Below, in pieces: positions 858 through 34,718 of a DNA stretch of 37,829 bases. The position numbers were made by a program, and so were the translations under genes. The notes below the pieces were generated by a model, which did no database searches, was not told the origin of the DNA, and worked only from the letters and a program-made list of their open reading frames with translations. This DNA comes from Candidatus Epulonipiscium sp. (GTDB taxonomy: Bacteria > Bacillota > Clostridia > Lachnospirales > Cellulosilyticaceae), in the NCBI GenBank assembly GCA_012518255.1, contig JAAYSX010000104.1, forward strand, positions 1 through 37,829, read 5' to 3'. The first letter of the stretch is position 1; each line of letters begins with the position of its first letter.

Positions 858-1019
858 GAATCTAAATTCTAATACGTCTTCCACCCGAAAACTTATCAAA
901 ATCTAATTTTAGGCAGGTCTCCTGACTTATAATAATTATCTTATCAATCACAGTAGCGGGGGCTGTTATGGATTTTAACCACATTCCCTTTTCACCTTTT
1001 ATTAAGGCACCTAAAATTA
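858..1019 (-). ncRNA. Cobalamin (B12) riboswitch
   Basis: The minus strand carries the conserved B12 box AAGTCAGGAGACCTGCC (plus coordinates 912-928). The P1 helix TAATTTTAGG (1010-1019) pairs perfectly with CCTAAAATTA (904-913). Between them are the expected conserved pieces GGGAATGTGGT and ACAGCCCCCGCTACTGTGA. The segment below 904, including a GGGTGGAAGACG stretch, leads into the terminator. It controls the btuF-like gene, and cobalamin should repress transcription. Confidence 0.95.
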
Positions 1020-1044
1020 ATCTTATATTTTGTTATCTGTAACT

Positions 1045-20884: not shown

Positions 20885-20949
20885 CTTACCCCACCTTATC
20901 TTATTTTACTTATATTATACACGAAAACCTGAATTATAGTAGAAAAATA

Positions 20950-20980
20950 AAAAAGGTCCTGTGTTTTCAGGACCTTCTTT
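20950..20980 (-). terminator. Intrinsic terminator of the hypB-flavoprotein-hypA-membrane protein operon
   Basis: A perfect 9-bp stem (AAGGTCCTG / CAGGACCTT, 6-nt loop, 20953-20976) followed by TTTTATTTTT on the minus strand, directly after the membrane protein gene. Confidence 0.9.
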
Positions 20981-20983
20981 GTC

Positions 20984-21910
20984 TTAAAGATTGTTTGCTT
21001 CAATTGTTTTCTTATATGAATTTGTATGTGTGTAAAGTTCTTCTTTGTATGGATTTCTCTTGTATTTTTTGGCCGTATAAATCATATATGCTAATAAACC
21101 TACGTTAAACACAAAAGAAATTACACTAATTGTCATCCACATACTTGGTTTGTATGTTGGCTCCACCTGGAAATATGGACTTGCTTGGAAGTCGATAGAT
21201 AAGGAGAACATTACATAAAGAGCTAATGTTTGAGCCCTATGCTGTAGCCACGCTCCTCTTTTAAATACATACTCTCCAATAAGTGCTGCTGTTAGTATAC
21301 TAAATCCTGCATATAATGCTCTTGTTGAAATACAGTTATATACATATGCATAGTTCCATAGTGTATATCCAACTATATATGGCCATGTCATATCGGCCCA
21401 GATCATATCCTTAGAATCATCATTAGATGCCCTAATACCAATAAATCCTGTTAAGGTTATAATACATATAATCCCTGCGATAGCATTTAATATATTCCAG
21501 GTTCCCCCTAGAACCATAACCCCTCCTGCATCGCGTCCCATTACATCAACTGTAAAGTAAATTTCAAACTCCCTATACACTGCCTCTGCAATATTCAGTG
21601 ATAATATTGCTAGTGGGTAGTATGCTGCAAATTTAGTTTTACCAGCATTAGTAAATCTAATTACCATAAATCCTAGTACACCAGCCAGTGCAGATACAAC
21701 CTTAACCCAGGCAAACCAGGTTTTCCCTGTTGGTGAGCCTAGAACATCCACAAATACTAGCGCTGCTAGAAGAACGGGTAAAACGCAGTATGCAAATATG
21801 GATATTTTCTTTGATCTTCTTGTAACCTCATTTAATACTACCCAAAGTGCTATAAATAATATAAGAGCAACTATATTCCCAAATGTAAAACCTTCATAAA
21901 ACAATCCCAT
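20984..21910 (-). CDS. Polytopic membrane protein, probably DUF5692 family
   Basis: A 308-residue integral membrane protein with about nine hydrophobic segments between residues 10 and 290 (for example 'IVALILFIALWVVL', 'WNILNAIAGIICIITLTGF', 'MTISVISFVFNVGLLAYM') and a short charged C-terminal tail. I believe it belongs to DUF5692, a family without known function, but I am not certain of that assignment. Conserved-looking polar residues lie inside or near helices ('NIAEAVYREFEIYF', 'YTLWNYAYVYNCISTRALYAG'). It is the last gene of an operon with hypB, an Fe-S flavoprotein and hypA. Context would allow a role in electron transfer, quinone contact or metal movement, but nothing in the sequence decides this. 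AAGGGGGAG precedes the start. Confidence 0.7.
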   Translation of the reverse strand: MGLFYEGFTFGNIVALILFIALWVVLNEVTRRSKKISIFAYCVLPVLLAALVFVDVLGSPTGKTWFAWVKVVSALAGVLGFMVIRFTNAGKTKFAAYYPLAILSLNIAEAVYREFEIYFTVDVMGRDAGGVMVLGGTWNILNAIAGIICIITLTGFIGIRASNDDSKDMIWADMTWPYIVGYTLWNYAYVYNCISTRALYAGFSILTAALIGEYVFKRGAWLQHRAQTLALYVMFSLSIDFQASPYFQVEPTYKPSMWMTISVISFVFNVGLLAYMIYTAKKYKRNPYKEELYTHTNSYKKTIEANNL

Positions 21911-21932
21911 TGTAACTCCCCCTTAGATTTAA

Positions 21933-22274
21933 TTACTGTGCAATTATTTCCTTGATATTAAATTCTTGTCCCGAAATTAACTCATAAGATTCTCCCTGGC
22001 AATTTGGACAGATTTTCCTGTGATCTATAATATTATAGATTTCTTGACACTCTTGGCACTGGGCCATTGCATCTAGGACTATAATTTCTAGCTCAGTATC
22101 TTCATACTCTGTCCCATCTACTGCTGCTGGATAGCATTCTTCTATAAATCTCGGTATGGCCTGAGATAGCTGGCCAATTTCAAGAACAATTTTCTCTACT
22201 TTACTTATTCCATTACCCTTGGCAAACTGGTCTACTACTCTAATAACTTCGTATACAATTCCTAATTCATGCAT
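21933..22274 (-). CDS. hypA: HypA-type nickel metallochaperone
   Basis: A 113-residue cytosolic chaperone that delivers Ni2+ during maturation of [NiFe] hydrogenase or another nickel enzyme, working with the HypB GTPase. The N-terminal Met-His-Glu (MHELGI) is the nickel site. The zinc site is formed by Cys73, Cys76, Cys89 and Cys92 in 'CQECQEIYNIIDHRKICPNC'. The family is clear. The gene begins five bases after the flavoprotein stop, and its GAGG ribosome-binding site overlaps that gene's last codons, so translation is coupled. No hydrogenase subunit and no hypC-F gene is nearby. Confidence 0.93.
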   Translation of the reverse strand: MHELGIVYEVIRVVDQFAKGNGISKVEKIVLEIGQLSQAIPRFIEECYPAAVDGTEYEDTELEIIVLDAMAQCQECQEIYNIIDHRKICPNCQGESYELISGQEFNIKEIIAQ

Positions 22275-22278
22275 ATTA

Positions 22279-25020
22279 TTACCTCGTTTTAGTGAATGGA
22301 TTTATTTTGTTAGCAGTGATTTTTGCTTTTCTTACTACTGTATTTTTCATAACTGTTTTTGGTAATTTATCAATATCATAGCCTACTGCATCATGAACCC
22401 TTTCCAACTTAATAGCGTCAAATTTACAACGTAATGTACATGCACCACATCCAACGCACATGAATTCATCTCTCTTAACAGCTCCACAGCCTAGGCATCT
22501 TTCTGTTTCTTTCTTAACTTGTTCTTTAGTTAAGGTACCCCTTAAGTCTTTGAAAGTTTCTTTTGCCTTTTTACCATCTACATGAGCAGTTTTTTGCCTT
22601 GGAATGTTGTCAAATCCTTCAATGTCAGCTAAGTTTTCCTTATCAAATACCACATAGGAGTGCATATCTCTTCCGTATACTAGGGATTGTCCTTCATGAA
22701 CAAAACGATGAATTGATACCGCACCTTCCTTACCTGCAGCAATTGCATCAATTGCAAATGTTGGGCCACTTGCAACGTCTCCCCCTGCAAATATATCATC
22801 CTTGCTTGTTTGTAGTGTAATAGGATCTACTTTGATAGTACCCATTTGTGTTAATTCAACATTTTCATTAGTAAATAATTCACCATAATCAAATGTTTGA
22901 CCTACTGATAATAAAACATAGTCGCATTCTACGATTTTTGTATCTGCTTCATCAAATTTAGGATTAAATCTTCCGTTTGCATCTAGAGTGCTAATGCAAC
23001 GTTTAAATTCAACTCCTGTTACCTTTCCACCTTCTGTAATAATACGCTTTGGACCCCAGGAATTATTAATATTAATATCTTCACTTAGGGCTTCTTCTAC
23101 CTCTTCTTCATGGGCTGGCATATTTTCCCTTGATTCTAAGCAGTATAGGTCTGTTTGCGTAACATCTTTTAATCTTGTGGATGTTCTTGCAACGTCAATA
23201 GCTACGTTACCCCCGCCAATTACTATTGTCTTACCTTTTACATCTGTTTCATTGCCTAGGTTAACTGTTCTTAAAAAGTCTACCCCGCTAAGTACTTCCC
23301 CTGCTTCTTCCCCTTCAATTCCCAGTTTTCTTCCTGCTTGGGCACCTATAGCAACATAAAATGCATCAAAGCCTTTTTTTCTTAACTCTTCAATTGTAAT
23401 ATCCTTACCAATTTCTACGCCTGTTTCAAACTTAACTCCCATTTCCCTAAGGATATCTATTTCTGCCTCAATAACATCTTTTTCTAATCTATAAGAAGGA
23501 ATTCCTAATGTTAACATTCCACCTAGTTTTTCTTCTTTTTCAAATACTGTTACATCATAGTTATCAATTGCTAAGTCATAAGCACAAGTTAAACCTGATG
23601 GACCTGCACCGATAATAGCAATCTTCTTATCACTATAGTCATGTCTTTTCTTTGGAATGTATCTAAGATCATGATTTAAATCCTGCTCTGCAATAAACTT
23701 TTTAATATCGTCTACTGCTACAGCCTCGTCTATATCTGCACGTGTACAGTCTTCCTCACAAAGTTTTGGACAGATACGTCCGCAAACAGCTGGAAGTGGA
23801 TTATGCTTTTTAATTAATTCCAAGGCTTCTGTAAATCTTTCCTGTGAAGCTAATTTGATATAACCTTGAACTGGTATATGCGCTGGGCATCTTGTTATAC
23901 AAGGTGATGTACCTGAATCCAGTGTATTTTTCCTATTAATTCTGTAGTCACTATTCCATTTGCTCTCGTCCCACTCAGTATTATTTGGAATAACTTTTGT
24001 AACAGTTTCGTCAATAGGTGTTTTAGAGCATAATTTTTGCCCAAGTCTTAAAGCGTTAGTCGGGCATACGTCCACACATTCACCACAAGCCACGCAGTTT
24101 TCTTCGTTAACTACTGCACGGTAATTTGACCTCATAATATCTGTGTTAATAAACTCGTTAGCTAGCCTTATAGCATAACAGCTACATCCGCAGCAGTTGC
24201 AAATAGCATGAGTTTTTCCTGGACCATCTAGGTTTGGTATGGAGTGCATTAATCCGTTATCTTCTGCATCTTTCATAATTTCTAATGCTTCATCTACTGT
24301 AATTTCTCTACCACGTCCTGTTTTTATATAGTACTCTGCTGCATCATCTAGCTGAATACACATTTCCTCTTTTAAGTGGCCACATCCTTCCCCCATAGCC
24401 TCTCTTGAAGTCCTACAGGAGCAATCTGATACTGATATTACTCTAGCTGCTTTTACATACCTTGAAACTTCCTCAAAGTCTACCTTCTTTGAATTACCAT
24501 CTATAGCTCTTTCTATTGGGATAACCCTCATAGGTCCCCCTGCTATAGGCATAATTCCTGCTGCCATAGGTCCCTTTCTACTTCCAAAGTAATAAAAGGC
24601 ATCCGCCACTATTGGATATTTTTTAACAATTTCCTTATTATTATTTATTGTTTCTAAATGTCCTGGTACAAAAATATCTTGCCAGTAGTAATCAACACCG
24701 TCTACTGTATTAATAAATGATACACCTGCCCAAGCAATATAATCTAAGGCCTCTTTAACCCTATCATATGGCTGCCCTGTAACCTTAGCTATATCTTCTG
24801 CTGTTTGCTTTTCACGGAACTTAAGCTTAAGAGCAATATTTGCCTGGTATTCATTAAGTAAAGGTTCTAGAACCCTATATTCTGGTCCAAAAGGAATCGC
24901 TCCCCTAGATGATCCCTCTTTAGTTCTACCTATATGGTTTGCTAAATCTAGAATTTCCTGCCTATATTCCCTATCCCCTACATCATCCCATGACATTGCA
25001 AAATCAATTTTTTTCGACAT
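22279..25020 (-). CDS. Large Fe-S/FAD oxidoreductase: N-terminal Fe-S module fused to GltD/NfnB-like flavoprotein
   Basis: A 913-residue cytosolic oxidoreductase. Residues 1-190 are a less familiar N-terminal module with a helical, winged-helix-like stretch (70-100). Cysteine-rich segments follow: C200-C202-C213-C221, then 'CNCCGCSC' (274-281), then a ferredoxin-type 'CVACGECVDVCP' (309-320). Residues 374-425 are the GltD-like Fe-S domain ('CITRCPAHIPVQGY', 'CGRICPKLCEEDC'). The FAD domain starts at 'AIIGAGPSG' (468-476) and the NAD(P)H domain at 'VIGGGNVAIDVAR' (600-612). Near the C-terminus two more cluster motifs appear (C842/C845 and 'CVGCGACTLRC', 855-865). The enzyme probably passes electrons between NAD(P)H and a ferredoxin-like or other partner. 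It lies between hypB and hypA. Substrate unknown. Confidence 0.82.
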   Translation of the reverse strand: MSKKIDFAMSWDDVGDREYRQEILDLANHIGRTKEGSSRGAIPFGPEYRVLEPLLNEYQANIALKLKFREKQTAEDIAKVTGQPYDRVKEALDYIAWAGVSFINTVDGVDYYWQDIFVPGHLETINNNKEIVKKYPIVADAFYYFGSRKGPMAAGIMPIAGGPMRVIPIERAIDGNSKKVDFEEVSRYVKAARVISVSDCSCRTSREAMGEGCGHLKEEMCIQLDDAAEYYIKTGRGREITVDEALEIMKDAEDNGLMHSIPNLDGPGKTHAICNCCGCSCYAIRLANEFINTDIMRSNYRAVVNEENCVACGECVDVCPTNALRLGQKLCSKTPIDETVTKVIPNNTEWDESKWNSDYRINRKNTLDSGTSPCITRCPAHIPVQGYIKLASQERFTEALELIKKHNPLPAVCGRICPKLCEEDCTRADIDEAVAVDDIKKFIAEQDLNHDLRYIPKKRHDYSDKKIAIIGAGPSGLTCAYDLAIDNYDVTVFEKEEKLGGMLTLGIPSYRLEKDVIEAEIDILREMGVKFETGVEIGKDITIEELRKKGFDAFYVAIGAQAGRKLGIEGEEAGEVLSGVDFLRTVNLGNETDVKGKTIVIGGGNVAIDVARTSTRLKDVTQTDLYCLESRENMPAHEEEVEEALSEDININNSWGPKRIITEGGKVTGVEFKRCISTLDANGRFNPKFDEADTKIVECDYVLLSVGQTFDYGELFTNENVELTQMGTIKVDPITLQTSKDDIFAGGDVASGPTFAIDAIAAGKEGAVSIHRFVHEGQSLVYGRDMHSYVVFDKENLADIEGFDNIPRQKTAHVDGKKAKETFKDLRGTLTKEQVKKETERCLGCGAVKRDEFMCVGCGACTLRCKFDAIKLERVHDAVGYDIDKLPKTVMKNTVVRKAKITANKINPFTKTR

Positions 25021-25023
25021 TCT

Positions 25024-25689
25024 TTATGCCTCCTTGTTTATTTCTTTCCTAATCCAGTTAATCCAGGCATCCATACCTTCGCCCGTTTTTGCTGAAATTG
25101 GGAAAATTAAAATATCTTCATTTAATTTTTTTACTCTTTCTTCTAAACGATCTAAATCAAAATCAAAGTGTTCAATAGCATCCATTTTACTAACAATGAG
25201 TACATCAACTTTTCCAAATATTTTTGGATATTTTAGAGGTTTATCATCGCCTTCAGGTACACTTAGGATAGCTACATTCTTCATAGCCCCTGTATCATAA
25301 CCTGCTGGGCAAATTAGATTACCTATATTTTCAAGGAAGAGAAGGTCTAAGTCATCTATACCTAATTCATCAATCCCTTGCTTTGTCATAGTTGCATCTA
25401 AGTGGCACATTCCTCCTGTATGTAATTGAATAGCCTTTGCACCAGCTTCCTGAACAGTTCTAGCATCTACGTCAGAATCAATATCAGCTTCTAAAACACC
25501 AATTTTAACATCTTTCTTTAATGCCTTAATTGTACTTACTAAAGTTGTTGTTTTTCCACTACCTGGTGAAGACATAATGTTAATTAAGTAAACTCCTTTT
25601 TCCTTTAGCTCCTTACGAGTTTCCTCAGCTACTTTTGCATTATCTTCATAAATCCCTTTTTGAATTGTAAATACCTTTAATTCATCCAT
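25024..25689 (-). CDS. hypB: HypB-type GTPase for nickel insertion
   Basis: A 221-residue SIMIBI-class GTPase that powers nickel transfer with HypA. The P-loop is 'MSSPGSGKTTT' (39-49). Metal-site residues Cys95-His96 ('GGMCHLDA') and Cys127 ('NIGNLICPAG') are conserved. The base-recognition motif reads SKMD (167-170) rather than the usual NKxD. The His-rich N-terminal nickel-storage tail of some HypBs is absent. It is first in the operon, has AAGGAGG before the ATG and a good promoter upstream. Without hydrogenase genes nearby, its client may be encoded elsewhere. Confidence 0.94.
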   Translation of the reverse strand: MDELKVFTIQKGIYEDNAKVAEETRKELKEKGVYLINIMSSPGSGKTTTLVSTIKALKKDVKIGVLEADIDSDVDARTVQEAGAKAIQLHTGGMCHLDATMTKQGIDELGIDDLDLLFLENIGNLICPAGYDTGAMKNVAILSVPEGDDKPLKYPKIFGKVDVLIVSKMDAIEHFDFDLDRLEERVKKLNEDILIFPISAKTGEGMDAWINWIRKEINKEA

Positions 25690-25718
25690 GTTTTGCCTCC
25701 TTAACTTCTTTTGTCTAT

Positions 25719-25747
25719 ATTATAACAAGGAAATTAATCCTTAACAA
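25719..25747 (-). promoter_or_regulatory. Promoter of the hypB operon
   Basis: TTGTTA (25742-25747), 17-nt spacer, TATAAT (25719-25724) on the minus strand, about 30 bases from the hypB start. Two GACAAG hexamers lie just upstream (25753-25768). Confidence 0.72.
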
Positions 25748-25779
25748 TATATGACAAGAGGCGACAAGAAAATATAGAC

Positions 25780-25883
25780 TACTTTATCATAGTGTTTACA
25801 CCACTAAAAAGCCAAAAATCATAGTATATAAGGACTTAATCAAGGATTTATAAGCTTCCAGGTGTTAACACTTTGACAAAGTA
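25780..25883. repeat. Long imperfect inverted repeat between the divergent operons
   Basis: 23-base arms at 25780-25802 and 25861-25883 match at 20 of 23 positions in opposite orientation, 58 bases apart. Each arm contains a palindromic core: GTGTTTACAC (nearly perfect) and GTGTTAACAC (perfect). It reads best as two operator sites for a dimeric regulator placed for DNA looping, shared by the hypB operon and the divergent transposase-like gene. A remnant of a tiny mobile element is the alternative. Confidence 0.7.
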
Positions 25884-25985
25884 AAATTCTTTTTTTATTG
25901 CCATTTTTCTTGCAATAAAAGACATTTCATTATAAACTATAGGTAATATAGGATAGATAAATAAGATTTTTAATAGGTGATGCTG

Positions 25986-26975
25986 ATGAAAAAAGACATG
26001 AGATTCAAAATTATTTCAGAAGGTTTAACCAATGGTGTAAGTACCACATGTAGAAAATATAACATATCAAGAACTTTATATTATCGCTGGTTAAATAGAT
26101 ATAAATCTAATGGAATAGACGGTTTATCTGATATTCAAAAGGATTTCGTGCCTGCTAATAAAACTGATTCCCAAGTAGAGGATGCCCTCCTAGATCTAAT
26201 AAAGGAATACCCTGATTATGGGCCCAGAGCATTAAAATATTTGTTTGATGAACTAGGCCATGATATTAGTGAATCTGCCATTTATAATATAATGAAAAGG
26301 AATAATTTAAACCGAAAGGAACTAAGAATAAAGTTTGCTAAAGGTGATACTAATAAAGTGGTATATACTATCCCACCCCTCACACAGCTAGCTAGTGGTG
26401 AATGCTGGGTGTTTTGGATTATAGACTATGGACCATATAAGGATATTGGAAATTTATACGAATACACCTTGTACGACTTAACAAGTAAAATTGCTTGCAC
26501 AAGGCTTTATAACAAAATATCAATTAATAACTTTGAAGACCTGTTAACAGCTGTTGCAATACCTGTTGCACAGTCTCTTCACCTTAATATAAAATATCTT
26601 TCTTTCTTAGATGAATGTAAACTTATTAGTAAGTTAGGTAAGACCTTTAAAAGCAGTATTGAAAAGATTGTCCTAAAGAGTGGCGTAGACTTTAAAGTAC
26701 ATACATTAACTGCTGAAAATAATGATTTAGAAACAATTCATACCTTTAAAAAGGATTACACAGAAGGCTGTTTATCCTTTTTAATGCCATTTATTCAGGA
26801 AGAAATATTATTTAATGATTTAAAAACAGAATGCCAAAGGTATGTTAAGAATTATAATCTAGATATTAAATCAGATTATCATAATGGGTTATATTCTCCT
26901 GTTGATTATCATAACCAATTAACAGATACAAAACTCATCTTACCTATGTGGGCATATATTGGACGTAAATACTAA
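25986..26975 (+). CDS. Transposase-like protein (IS481/IS3-type architecture), probably domesticated
   Basis: A 329-residue protein. The N-terminal helix-turn-helix is 'GLTNGVSTTCRKYNISRTLY' (13-32), and the second HTH region (about 62-115) has the typical 'EYPDYGPRALKYLF'. The DDE integrase-like core follows. Candidate catalytic residues are Asp147 ('WIIDYG'), Asp209 ('SFLDEC') and Glu249 ('NDLETIHTFKK'), spaced 62 and 40 apart, close to normal. The surrounding motifs are heavily diverged: no 'DNG' follows the second Asp. The end resembles the usual 'SPVDYHNQL' tail. There are no terminal repeats flanking it, and an unrelated gene starts 16 bases after its stop, so it is not an active IS. 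It may act as a DNA-binding regulator. I chose the ATG at 25986 because AGGTG lies six bases before it. Confidence 0.7.
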   Translation: MKKDMRFKIISEGLTNGVSTTCRKYNISRTLYYRWLNRYKSNGIDGLSDIQKDFVPANKTDSQVEDALLDLIKEYPDYGPRALKYLFDELGHDISESAIYNIMKRNNLNRKELRIKFAKGDTNKVVYTIPPLTQLASGECWVFWIIDYGPYKDIGNLYEYTLYDLTSKIACTRLYNKISINNFEDLLTAVAIPVAQSLHLNIKYLSFLDECKLISKLGKTFKSSIEKIVLKSGVDFKVHTLTAENNDLETIHTFKKDYTEGCLSFLMPFIQEEILFNDLKTECQRYVKNYNLDIKSDYHNGLYSPVDYHNQLTDTKLILPMWAYIGRKY

Positions 26976-26991
26976 GGAGGATATATGTAAT

Positions 26992-28200
26992 ATGAAAGTT
27001 GCGGTAATCGGGGGTGGATTTAGTGGCATGCTTGCTGCTTATCTGCTTGAAAAAAAGGGTATAGATGTTACTGTATATGAAAAGCAGGAATATATTGGCG
27101 GGCACTGCAAAACCATTGTTAGTAAAAATGTATATACTGAACTTGGAACTGTCTTTTCCCTTTCCAGGCAAATTAAGGAGCTCTTAATTGATCTGCAAGT
27201 TGACTATACTGAAAGATTTGTATACAGAAATTTTGTTAATGAAGAATATCAGCTTGTCGAGCATATGCTAAGGGAGGATGTCGTCCTTTTAATTGATGAA
27301 TTATCCACACTGCAAAATATACTCCAGCAATTTGAACCTTATATATCTGAAACAAATTATGGTTATATACCAGAAGATATGCTTATGCCTTTTAGCCAGT
27401 TTCTCAAAAAATATAATTTAAGGTTTGTTTCCCAGGTAATTGTCCCTCACCTATCTTCTTTTGGTTTCGGGTCCATAGATGATCTTCAAGCCTACTATGT
27501 TTTTAAAACTTTTAATCTAGATACTATAAACTCTTTTTTAAAGGGTGAGAGGCTACTTTTTATTGATAAGGGAATGTCCGAACTTATCAATAAGCTAAGT
27601 CAGCGCATAACAGATATACGTTATTCTTTGGAGGTAACAAATGTGGAAGTGGCTGGAGACAAGGTAAAAATTGAAACACCATATGCTTCAGACTATTTTG
27701 ATAAGGTACTAATAACCACTAAACTGCCTAGGGGGGTTATTAAGGATAAATTATATAATGATCTAATGGCAAAAATCGATACTAACCCTTTTGTAACCTG
27801 TGTTTATGAGGTAACAAATAAGGATTTAGCATCGACTTATTACAAGGCTCACCTTGGTAAAGCAGAGAAGATTCAGTTTTTCTTCGCATCTAGGCAACAT
27901 AATAGAACAATTATAACAGCTTATGTATATGGCCATATTGAAAAAGATATGATTGCCCAGGTCACAAATGATATAGAAATGCTAGGCATTAACATTAAAC
28001 AACTAGTAACTGTTAAGCAGTGGTATATATTTCCCCACCTAAAACCCCACAATCTAACTTCAAATTTCTATGTGGATATAGCTAAGAGGCAAAGGGAAAG
28101 TAATATATGTTTAATTGGTTCACTAGTTTCTAAACCATCCCTTGATAACCTATATCTATCTGTTAAAAACTCTATAGATGAGATTTTCCCTACAGATTAA
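26992..28200 (+). CDS. FAD-dependent (amine oxidase/protoporphyrinogen oxidase-like) oxidoreductase
   Basis: A 402-residue flavoprotein. The N-terminal FAD-binding Rossmann fold is 'KVAVIGGGFSGMLAAYLL' (2-19) followed by Glu in 'VTVYEKQEYIGGHC' (28-41), the classical dinucleotide motif with GGH instead of GGR. The C-terminal 'NICLIGSLVSKPSLDNLYLS' occupies the place of the usual second FAD motif. The middle is not recognisable. Start at 26992 is supported by AAGGAGG at 26973-26979. The gene is 16 bases after the transposase-like gene and probably co-transcribed with it. Its last 11 bases overlap the convergent exonuclease gene. Substrate unknown. Confidence 0.78.
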   Translation: MKVAVIGGGFSGMLAAYLLEKKGIDVTVYEKQEYIGGHCKTIVSKNVYTELGTVFSLSRQIKELLIDLQVDYTERFVYRNFVNEEYQLVEHMLREDVVLLIDELSTLQNILQQFEPYISETNYGYIPEDMLMPFSQFLKKYNLRFVSQVIVPHLSSFGFGSIDDLQAYYVFKTFNLDTINSFLKGERLLFIDKGMSELINKLSQRITDIRYSLEVTNVEVAGDKVKIETPYASDYFDKVLITTKLPRGVIKDKLYNDLMAKIDTNPFVTCVYEVTNKDLASTYYKAHLGKAEKIQFFFASRQHNRTIITAYVYGHIEKDMIAQVTNDIEMLGINIKQLVTVKQWYIFPHLKPHNLTSNFYVDIAKRQRESNICLIGSLVSKPSLDNLYLSVKNSIDEIFPTD

Positions 28201-32954: not shown

Positions 32955-34718
32955 TTACTCCGCCTTAATATCCTCTATGCCCATAGGTTTATAGTAATAA
33001 TAACCCTGGACTTGGTAGCAACCCTCCTCTTTAAGGAATTCTAATTGTTCTTTTGTCTCCACTCCCTCAGCTAGTACATGGATTCCCAAGCCTTTAGATA
33101 AAGAAATGATAGACCTTACAATAGCTTTATCTTTGCCATCACTATTAGTAATCCCATGGATAAACTCCATATCAATCTTTATAAGATCTATAGGGAATTT
33201 ACGTATCCTATTTAGGGATGAATACTCCTTCCCATAATCATCAATTGCTATAGAAAATCCTATGTCCTTTAATATATCCAATATTTCTCTAATTTTACTC
33301 TCATCAACATAAACTAGGCTTTCTGTAATTTCTATTTCGATATTTTTAGCCTCTACTTTTGTTTCCTCTAATATACTTATAAGATTTTTTATATTATTTT
33401 TATTTATTAATTGTTCTAATGAGAAATTAATAGCTAGTTTTATATTGTTTTTATATATATTTGTTAATTCCTTGTAATCTTTACAAGCATTTTTAAAAAC
33501 CCACAAGCCTATTGAATTCATAAGTCCTGCCTTTGTTGCTAATGGAATAAATTCGCCCGGGGATACAAGGCCATATTTACTATTGTCCCACCTTAACAAA
33601 GCTTCCACTCCAATTATTTCACCTGTTGTTAGGTTTACTTGTGGTTGGTAGTGCAAATAAAACTCATCCTCTTCTATCGCACTATGTAAATAATTAATTA
33701 ATTCAGTTTTTCTATAGGTATCTGTCTTCATTTTTGGATTAAAAAATACATATTGATTCTTCCCATTCTTTTTAGCTTCATACATAGATATATCGGCATT
33801 TTTAATTATATCTGTTTTACATTCACCGTCTATTGGGTACATGGCAATACCGACACTACCAGATATATAAAAATCTAGGCCATCTATTTTTAATGGCTTT
33901 TTAAACTCATTTAATATTGTTAGCACATCTTTTTCTATATCTGATATATTTTCAAGGTTTCTGCGTAAAATAATAAATTCATCCCCGCCAAATCTTGCAA
34001 CCGTGTAATTATCATCCAAGCTTGATATTAAACGGTTAGATATAGTAATAAGTACATCATCTCCCGCCGAATGACCTAAGGTATCATTAATTCTCTTAAA
34101 AGAATCTAAGTCTGCAAATATAACGCCTAGCTTAGTGTTGTGTAATTTAGCATCATTTATAGCCCTATCAAGCTCTTTTATAAAGGCATATCTATTAGGT
34201 AGACCTGTCAAACTGTCTATATGCGCCTGTTTATATAAGTTTTCCTGTGATTTTTCTAGCTCACTTTTTTGATTATTAATATGCTCTGCATAATCAGATA
34301 CTTGTTTTTTATATTGACTAATCAGGCTTATAATTATTAAAGTGGATATGTTGCTTATAACCCCTGGCATGGCATCCGTTGATCCTGATTTTCTCATATA
34401 TAAAATTGTTGTTAAAATATTAATGATATTTAGTAATACTGCATTAAAGTAGCCTTCTTTACCTAAACTAAAAACTATGTAAATGGACAGTAACATTTGC
34501 AACTGGGTAATAATTCCCCTTATTGAATAAGTATCTAATATAAGGTAAGCATATGCTTTCCCTTCTCTTATAGTGTTAGAATATCCCCTAAGTATATGTA
34601 TTAATCCCAAATATAATATTATAAATATAATTAACGTAATCTTGCTTTTTTTCCTAGTAGGTTCTTTATTAATTTTTTTGATTGAAATTGTAAACACCTC
34701 CTCAAAATAATTATACAT
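32955..34718 (-). CDS. Membrane GGDEF-EAL protein (c-di-GMP turnover)
   Basis: A 587-residue signalling enzyme. Residues about 25-155 form four or five membrane helices. A short coiled segment (about 150-165) leads to a GGDEF domain (about 165-325) with the intact catalytic 'RFGGDEF', then an EAL domain (about 335-585) with 'GVEALLRW', 'AINFSLEQL', 'EIEITES', 'AIDDYGKEYSSL', 'KIDMEF' and 'AEGVET'. Both active sites look intact, so it could both make and break c-di-GMP. The start is uncertain: the ATG at 34718 has no good ribosome-binding site and sits almost on a TATAAT box, while GAGGAGG lies inside the frame eight bases before an ATT codon at 34688. Confidence 0.9.
   Translation of the reverse strand: MYNYFEEVFTISIKKINKEPTRKKSKITLIIFIILYLGLIHILRGYSNTIREGKAYAYLILDTYSIRGIITQLQMLLSIYIVFSLGKEGYFNAVLLNIINILTTILYMRKSGSTDAMPGVISNISTLIIISLISQYKKQVSDYAEHINNQKSELEKSQENLYKQAHIDSLTGLPNRYAFIKELDRAINDAKLHNTKLGVIFADLDSFKRINDTLGHSAGDDVLITISNRLISSLDDNYTVARFGGDEFIILRRNLENISDIEKDVLTILNEFKKPLKIDGLDFYISGSVGIAMYPIDGECKTDIIKNADISMYEAKKNGKNQYVFFNPKMKTDTYRKTELINYLHSAIEEDEFYLHYQPQVNLTTGEIIGVEALLRWDNSKYGLVSPGEFIPLATKAGLMNSIGLWVFKNACKDYKELTNIYKNNIKLAINFSLEQLINKNNIKNLISILEETKVEAKNIEIEITESLVYVDESKIREILDILKDIGFSIAIDDYGKEYSSLNRIRKFPIDLIKIDMEFIHGITNSDGKDKAIVRSIISLSKGLGIHVLAEGVETKEQLEFLKEEGCYQVQGYYYYKPMGIEDIKAE

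Follow-up and report, generated by a model that had tools for sequence, protein, structure and literature searches.

Here, we have analysed a stretch of 37,829 nucleotides from Candidatus Epulonipiscium sp. (contig JAAYSX010000104.1; hereafter the window) and showed that an operon for the nickel chaperones HypA and HypB, a large Fe-S flavoprotein and a DUF5692 membrane protein is coupled to a divergent gene pair, which encodes an FAD protein resembling polyunsaturated fatty acid isomerase (PAI) and a helix-turn-helix (HTH) protein derived from IS481. The coupling is well supported: its recurrence, its presence throughout one subclade of the flavoprotein tree and a conserved site shared by the two gene sets indicate that they are evolutionarily and probably transcriptionally linked. 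We would give an even chance to the reading that the locus is an isomerase-coupled, nickel-served system for the reduction of conjugated dienes, most likely those made from polyunsaturated fatty acids.

The four genes of the operon lie on the minus strand with gaps of 3, 4 and 22 bases. They are hypB (25024-25689; 221 residues; TIGR00073, 251 bits against a cut-off of 121), the flavoprotein gene (22279-25020; 913 residues; Pyr_redox_2, Fer4_20 and Fer4 domains in Pfam/NCBIfam), hypA (21933-22274; 113 residues; PF01155, 103 bits against 28.9) and the DUF5692 gene (20984-21910; 308 residues; PF18948, 344 bits against 27). A promoter-like site on the same strand (25719-25747; TTGTTA and TATAAT spaced by 17 bases, TG-extended and sigma-70-like) is located 5' of hypB, and a terminator-like hairpin (20949-20980, minus strand; 13 pairs followed by a T run) is located 3' of the DUF5692 gene. 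Each of these consensus scans is weak evidence alone, and both elements are correctly placed. The coordinates, profile matches and scans together bear out the claim of an earlier note on this DNA that the four contiguous, tightly spaced genes form one operon with one promoter and one terminator. The genes are also kept together elsewhere, as that note had supposed: within six genes of isrA, HypA is encoded at 70 of 90 loci, HypB at 62 and DUF5692 at 43, a linkage far beyond chance.

Judged by its sequence, the flavoprotein is a homologue of IsrA, the putative isoprene reductase of Acetobacterium wieringae, a protein of 901 residues whose FAD/NAD(P)H core resembles that of GltD/Nfn and which has four [4Fe-4S] sites plus a further six-cysteine site with two CxC motifs (Kronen et al. 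2023, PMC10134865). The window protein has a ferredoxin motif at about residues 300-331, a core with Fer4_20 and FAD/NAD(P)H folds (370-775), whose PDB relatives are of the GltD/Nfn type, and a C-terminal ferredoxin (842-865). It scores below the curated cut-offs for GltD and NfnB (283 against 472 bits for TIGR01316, 283 against 483 for TIGR01318 and 457 against 516 for PRK12771). In an alignment of 15 homologues, cysteines 200, 202, 213, 221, 274, 276 and 281 of its N-domain are invariant, and C200-x-C202 and C274-x-C276 are the two CxC motifs that mark the architecture of the IsrA family (clade 9 of PMC10134865); the hypA and hypB neighbours used to recognise the family are likewise present at the window locus. 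The structural model of the N-domain is weak (68.7) and matches mostly winged-helix proteins over its first part, with a single fold match at E<1e-3 (RPC62, TM 0.2); these matches are uninformative on the metal site, and a sequence profile of the domain searched against the PDB recovered ferredoxin motifs only. Among 988 IsrA homologues, the published frequencies of neighbours are 0.73 for HypA, 0.56 for HypB, 0.40 for DUF5692 and 0.21 for TetR, and insertion of nickel into IsrA by HypA/HypB was proposed in the same study (PMC10134865); the isr operon, or diene reductase cluster, is also covered in PMC12509576. Since both the four-gene association and the nickel idea have been published for IsrA (PMC10134865), they are already known, and the suggestion that the locus encodes an undescribed redox system does not stand.

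By motif inspection, HypB has the G-domain nickel site (CH at 95 and C127), a P-loop GSGKT at 43 and SKMD at 167, and is of the short form that lacks the N-terminal CXXCGC site. HypA has the MHE N-terminus (His2-Glu3) and two CxxC motifs that make up the zinc site C73/C76/C89/C92. It scores 77.5 bits against the 88.1 bits of the NCBI hydrogenase equivalog TIGR00100 and is thus a divergent HypA.

Conservation of the locus does not end with hypB. On the plus strand, the gene for the IS481-derived HTH protein (25977-26975; 332 residues) is followed by that for the PAI-family FAD protein (26959-28200; 413 residues; its start may be the ATG at 26992), and the former was always found paired with a PAI-like gene. 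The conserved unit thus reaches 28200, and the segment 20984-25689, on which attention had first been focused, is too narrow: its four genes were correctly described, but the PAI-like isomerase, which tells more than any other partner, was overlooked. The best PDB match of this protein is 2b9w (residues 12-398, E 4e-22), the PAI of P. acnes. A profile of eleven PAI-like proteins matched PAI with 229 bits and the next protein with 60 bits, a full-length similarity above that to other FAD amine-oxidase-fold proteins. Arg88 and Phe168, which gate the active site of PAI, align with Arg90 (nearly invariant in the PAI-like set) and Phe168 (Phe or Tyr) of the window protein. The IS481-derived protein scores 82.9 bits against the cut-off of 224 for the transposase family NF033577, and in an alignment of three sequences, read by eye, the second and third DDE positions are not occupied by invariant acidic residues; it is likely a regulator. 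We considered whether the gene at 25977 is a fresh IS insertion and rejected this on its recurrent pairing with PAI-like genes, its score below the cut-off and its lack of conserved catalytic residues.

The HTH and PAI-like pair stands beside hypB-isrA in Fusibacter, two species of Proteiniclasticum, Anaeromonas, Alkaliphilus, Anaerosalibacter, Clostridium sp. CL-2 and others. Relative to hypB-isrA it is divergent in some and co-directional in others, and in Anaerosalibacter a transporter set lies between the two. For an unbiased view, PAI-like genes were sought in 393 genomes of the class. Eight full-length genes were found, five of which touch hypB-isrA (in the window genome, G000, and in G181, G231, G255 and G385). 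A sixth, in G363, belongs to a cluster of hypAB and a split IsrA with a CbiM/CbiQ transporter; of the remaining two, one stands with a CrtI-like and reductase module (G199) and one at a contig end. The probability that six of eight PAI-like genes fall in isrA/hypAB clusters by chance is about 2e-12 if each 3-Mb genome is taken to have two IsrA genes and the reach is set at 5 kb. A quick tree of 93 IsrA proteins places the window protein in a subclade of eight with an SH-aLRT support of 100 and a long stem, and every member of this subclade has the pair. Over the whole tree, the pair label changes at least five times, suggesting that the link to the isomerase was gained or lost several times. 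About 77 of 90 IsrA loci have no PAI-like neighbour, so a tie to this gene does not hold for the whole enzyme class. The split relative in G363 (L161; contig 77, 1586-12708) comprises genes for the HTH partner, the PAI-like protein, two GltD-like pieces, a flavoprotein of the geranylgeranyl-reductase family, a ferredoxin corresponding to the IsrA N-domain, HypA, HypB and CbiM-CbiQ-ATPase, with DUF5692 alongside.

The intergenic region offers further evidence of the coupling. An exact copy of the site TTACTTT-N6-GTGTNNACA is found at 25863-25884 (minus strand) and a second, inverted copy with one mismatch at 25779-25800 (plus strand), so that an inverted pair lies between the divergent gene sets. 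The site is found in the gap that separates the isomerase pair from the reductase operon at 12 of 14 loci (the window, 25690-25976, and the gaps in L064, L065, L070-L073, L076, L078, L079, L162 and L163), against an expectation of 0.02 from random stretches of these loci, and often as two inverted copies tens of bases apart. It was discovered in six of the 14 loci, so the other eight are a fairer test; it is present in six of them. It is also found at loci whose isomerases are merely ~27% identical to that of the window. In the window genome, 25863-25884 is the sole exact copy and, with 25779-25800, forms the sole inverted pair. A search of this genome for a wider regulon yielded 20 matches with two mismatches, compared with 20 for a reversed control pattern. 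Next to a domesticated IS481-like protein, the site looks like a transposon-end recognition sequence that may have been turned into an operator. Elsewhere in the window, a copy with one mismatch where a GGDEF-EAL gene starts (34689-34710, minus strand; gene 32955-34718) is probably due to chance, and a cobalamin riboswitch (895-1029, minus strand; Rfam RF00174, 91.9 bits) adjoins a Hemerythrin/PAS gene (1082-2341).

PAI-type enzymes convert non-conjugated polyunsaturated fatty acids into conjugated dienes. Combined with diene reduction of the IsrA type, such an activity suggests a scheme of isomerisation followed by reduction, as in rumen biohydrogenation. Going by its family and conserved residues, the PAI-like FAD enzyme would convert a non-conjugated polyunsaturated fatty acid, for instance linoleate, into a conjugated diene by shifting one of its double bonds. 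Electrons from NAD(P)H may then pass through FAD and the [4Fe-4S] clusters of the flavoprotein to its Cys-rich N-terminal site, where one double bond of the diene would be reduced, as the published diene chemistry suggests. HypB and HypA would load nickel into this site, their putative client. DUF5692 may act at the membrane as a partner that handles the lipophilic substrate or product rather than as a nickel client, and the IS481-derived HTH protein, the candidate binder of the observed inverted site, would control both gene sets. The cell could gain by detoxifying polyunsaturated fatty acids, by disposing of electrons, or by both. The genomic context lends side support to fatty acids as substrates. 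The window genome has an oleate hydratase gene, and GntR/FCD regulators recur beside isrA. Across genomes, oleate hydratase is found with IsrA in 11 cases where 5.6 are expected (p 0.013), a weak association in which phylogeny is ignored, and its gene adjoins homologues of isrA in both A. woodii and A. fimetarium (PMC10134865). The fullest version of this scheme is a dedicated, co-regulated pathway of anaerobic fatty acid biohydrogenation, in which a PAI-type isomerase feeds a new class of nickel-flavoprotein diene reductases with its own HypA/HypB under the control of a domesticated transposase; this we put forward tentatively, as somewhat more likely to be wrong than right.

What the reductase acts on is the point at which a different reading has most to offer. 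In the IsrA family, conjugated-diene reduction is known from whole-cell activity and induction in A. wieringae only, where strain Y reduced isoprene and 1,3-butadiene but not ethene, propene or fumarate (PMC9765523), and isoprene and butadiene are the only inducers and substrates demonstrated (PMC10134865, PMC9765523). The similarity of the PAI-like protein to the P. acnes enzyme is remote, and the protein could act on another polyene. It is conceivable, though we doubt it, that the window enzyme reduces a non-fatty-acid polyene (an isoprenoid, terpenoid, polyene pigment or other plant or host compound) isomerised by the PAI-like protein. The geranylgeranyl-reductase-family protein in the PAI/hypAB cluster L161 and the CrtI/carotenoid-isomerase-like protein of the alternative module would fit such a substrate. 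Against it, the only solved close relative of the isomerase is PAI, which acts on linoleate; no isomerase would be needed for volatile isoprene; and the oleate hydratase context points to fatty acids.

We have also asked which protein the chaperones serve. In the window assembly (1.91 Mb, 95% complete), a profile search found no large subunit of [NiFe] hydrogenase, no CO dehydrogenase above cut-off (best match 26 against 478 bits) and neither LarA nor urease; partial matches to urease profiles were seen in other genomes only. That hypA/hypB travel with the flavoprotein and without hydrogenase thus holds for the whole assembly and not just for the window. One match to the CO dehydrogenase profile, a protein of 552 residues on contig 4, was rejected, its length and N-terminal sequence being of the hybrid-cluster-protein (prismane) type. 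Hydrogenase, CO dehydrogenase, LarA and urease were accordingly rejected as clients of HypAB in the window genome. At 95% completeness, a nickel enzyme could have been missed there; two genomes that are 99% complete, G306 and G215, carry the four genes and likewise lack all four enzymes. Other carriers differ: PF00374 matches were found in 7 of 15 and CO dehydrogenase above cut-off in 4 of 15, so the absence is not a rule, and the idea that carriers lack [NiFe] hydrogenase and CO dehydrogenase holds for the window genome, G306 and G215 but not for these others. The absence of the four enzymes supports the nickel reading, and with the four genes conserved together, neither of the two observations that the earlier note had named as speaking against it was made. 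Because all four enzymes are absent, these three genomes are clean places to ask if the flavoprotein needs nickel.

Transporters in the gene clusters also support nickel as the metal, although the families concerned, ECF and FecCD, are not nickel-specific. The G363 cluster encodes CbiM/CbiQ/ATPase of the Co/Ni ECF type, and the clusters of Proteiniclasticum ruminis and Anaerosalibacter encode FecCD-type ABC systems; no CbiM was found in the window genome. In L078, L080 and L090, the FecCD-type transporter genes that lie upstream of hypB-isrA begin with one for an FmdE/zinc-finger protein.

The window genome encodes a second full-length IsrA on contig 63 (L165, 9118-11817), whose gene has a divergent TetR gene but not hypAB next to it; this protein would have to depend on the HypA/HypB of the window. 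Its solitary state is one of the points for supposing that HypA/HypB serve another nickel or metal enzyme in trans and that the flavoprotein is a plain Fe-S flavoprotein. The presence of nickel in IsrA is a proposal for every member of the family, and small nickel enzymes such as glyoxalase I are outside the four searched. We regard this explanation as unlikely, because HypA/HypB adjoin IsrA at most loci and across phyla, the four known nickel enzymes are absent from the window genome, G306 and G215, and the seven invariant cysteines belong to a domain for which no other role is known.

A further candidate for nickel is the membrane protein, in line with the earlier note's reading at the membrane. 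DUF5692 is predicted to have an all-helical membrane fold (model pLDDT 85.5), and a fold search of the model against the PDB gave no match at E<=0.001. Full-length IsrA is encoded in 24 of 28 genomes with DUF5692 (p 4e-25), often in the same operon, as would be expected if DUF5692 were a nickel client or transporter with the flavoprotein as its redox partner. We think this very improbable. DUF5692 also occurs away from hypAB, either alone or, on contig 106 of the window genome, alongside a CrtI/carotenoid-isomerase-like flavoprotein and a ferredoxin-reductase-like protein. The same grouping is found in G363 (L042), where a CrtI-like frame of 116 residues alone precedes the reductase gene, and in L138, where isrA-hypA is ~5 kb away. 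That DUF5692 stands without hypAB argues against a nickel client, and its company with two different reductase modules argues for a common role, for example in handling lipophilic substrates. Moreover, more than half of IsrA loci have no DUF5692, Co/Ni ECF or FecCD transporters occur separately, and its model did not match the fold of any known nickel transporter. The module of CrtI-like and ferredoxin-reductase-like proteins, seen with DUF5692, PAI-like genes or isrA in L038 (contig 106, 9125-14472), L164, L042, L118 and L138, is possibly a nickel-free counterpart. On contig 106, the module is preceded by a second and divergent DUF5692-like frame.

Among anaerobes, gut Lachnospiraceae and Oscillospiraceae included, IsrA-type flavoproteins that have nickel chaperones of their own are widespread, and the conserved, co-regulated isomerase provides a concrete prediction of substrate beyond isoprene and butadiene. 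If the fatty acid reading is true, anaerobic biohydrogenation would be tied to a new class of nickel enzymes acting on C=C bonds, and would have a genetic basis in Proteiniclasticum, Fusibacter and related Clostridia. A CLA reductase of Butyrivibrio fibrisolvens was reportedly described by Fukuda in 2007 (cited in PMC4478896). In the literature searched, mostly non-subscription papers, we found no link between IsrA-type enzymes and conjugated linoleate, and no paper on Proteiniclasticum and biohydrogenation, an absence that is not proof. The four-gene core is known; within the same coverage, we did not find the coupling to isomerase and regulator, the conserved site or the fatty acid prediction.

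Compared with the isr operon of A. wieringae, the window shares a flavoprotein of ~900 residues with a Cys-rich N-domain, CxC motifs, a GltD-like core and a C-terminal ferredoxin, operonic hypA and short-form hypB, and a genome without [NiFe] hydrogenase. It differs in having DUF5692 in place of a second HypA and a separate 4Fe-4S protein, in the adjacent PAI-like isomerase and IS481-derived protein with their common conserved site, and in the predicted substrate of its subclade, which would be a fatty acid and not isoprene. Subunits of the NfnB/GltD/DsrL type have the same Fer4_20 and FAD/NAD(P)H fold as residues 370-775, to which the flavoprotein adds a Cys-rich N-domain of 300 residues and the C-terminal ferredoxin. 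The chaperones resemble those of [NiFe] hydrogenase maturation in that HypB is an equivalog and HypA has the fold, the MHE start and two CxxC motifs; in contrast, HypA falls below the equivalog level and the window genome has no hydrogenase large subunit. Finally, the isomerase matches P. acnes PAI (2b9w) over its full length, with the FAD amine-oxidase fold and far above other solved proteins, whereas its identity to PAI is remote and it is paired with a regulator beside a reductase.
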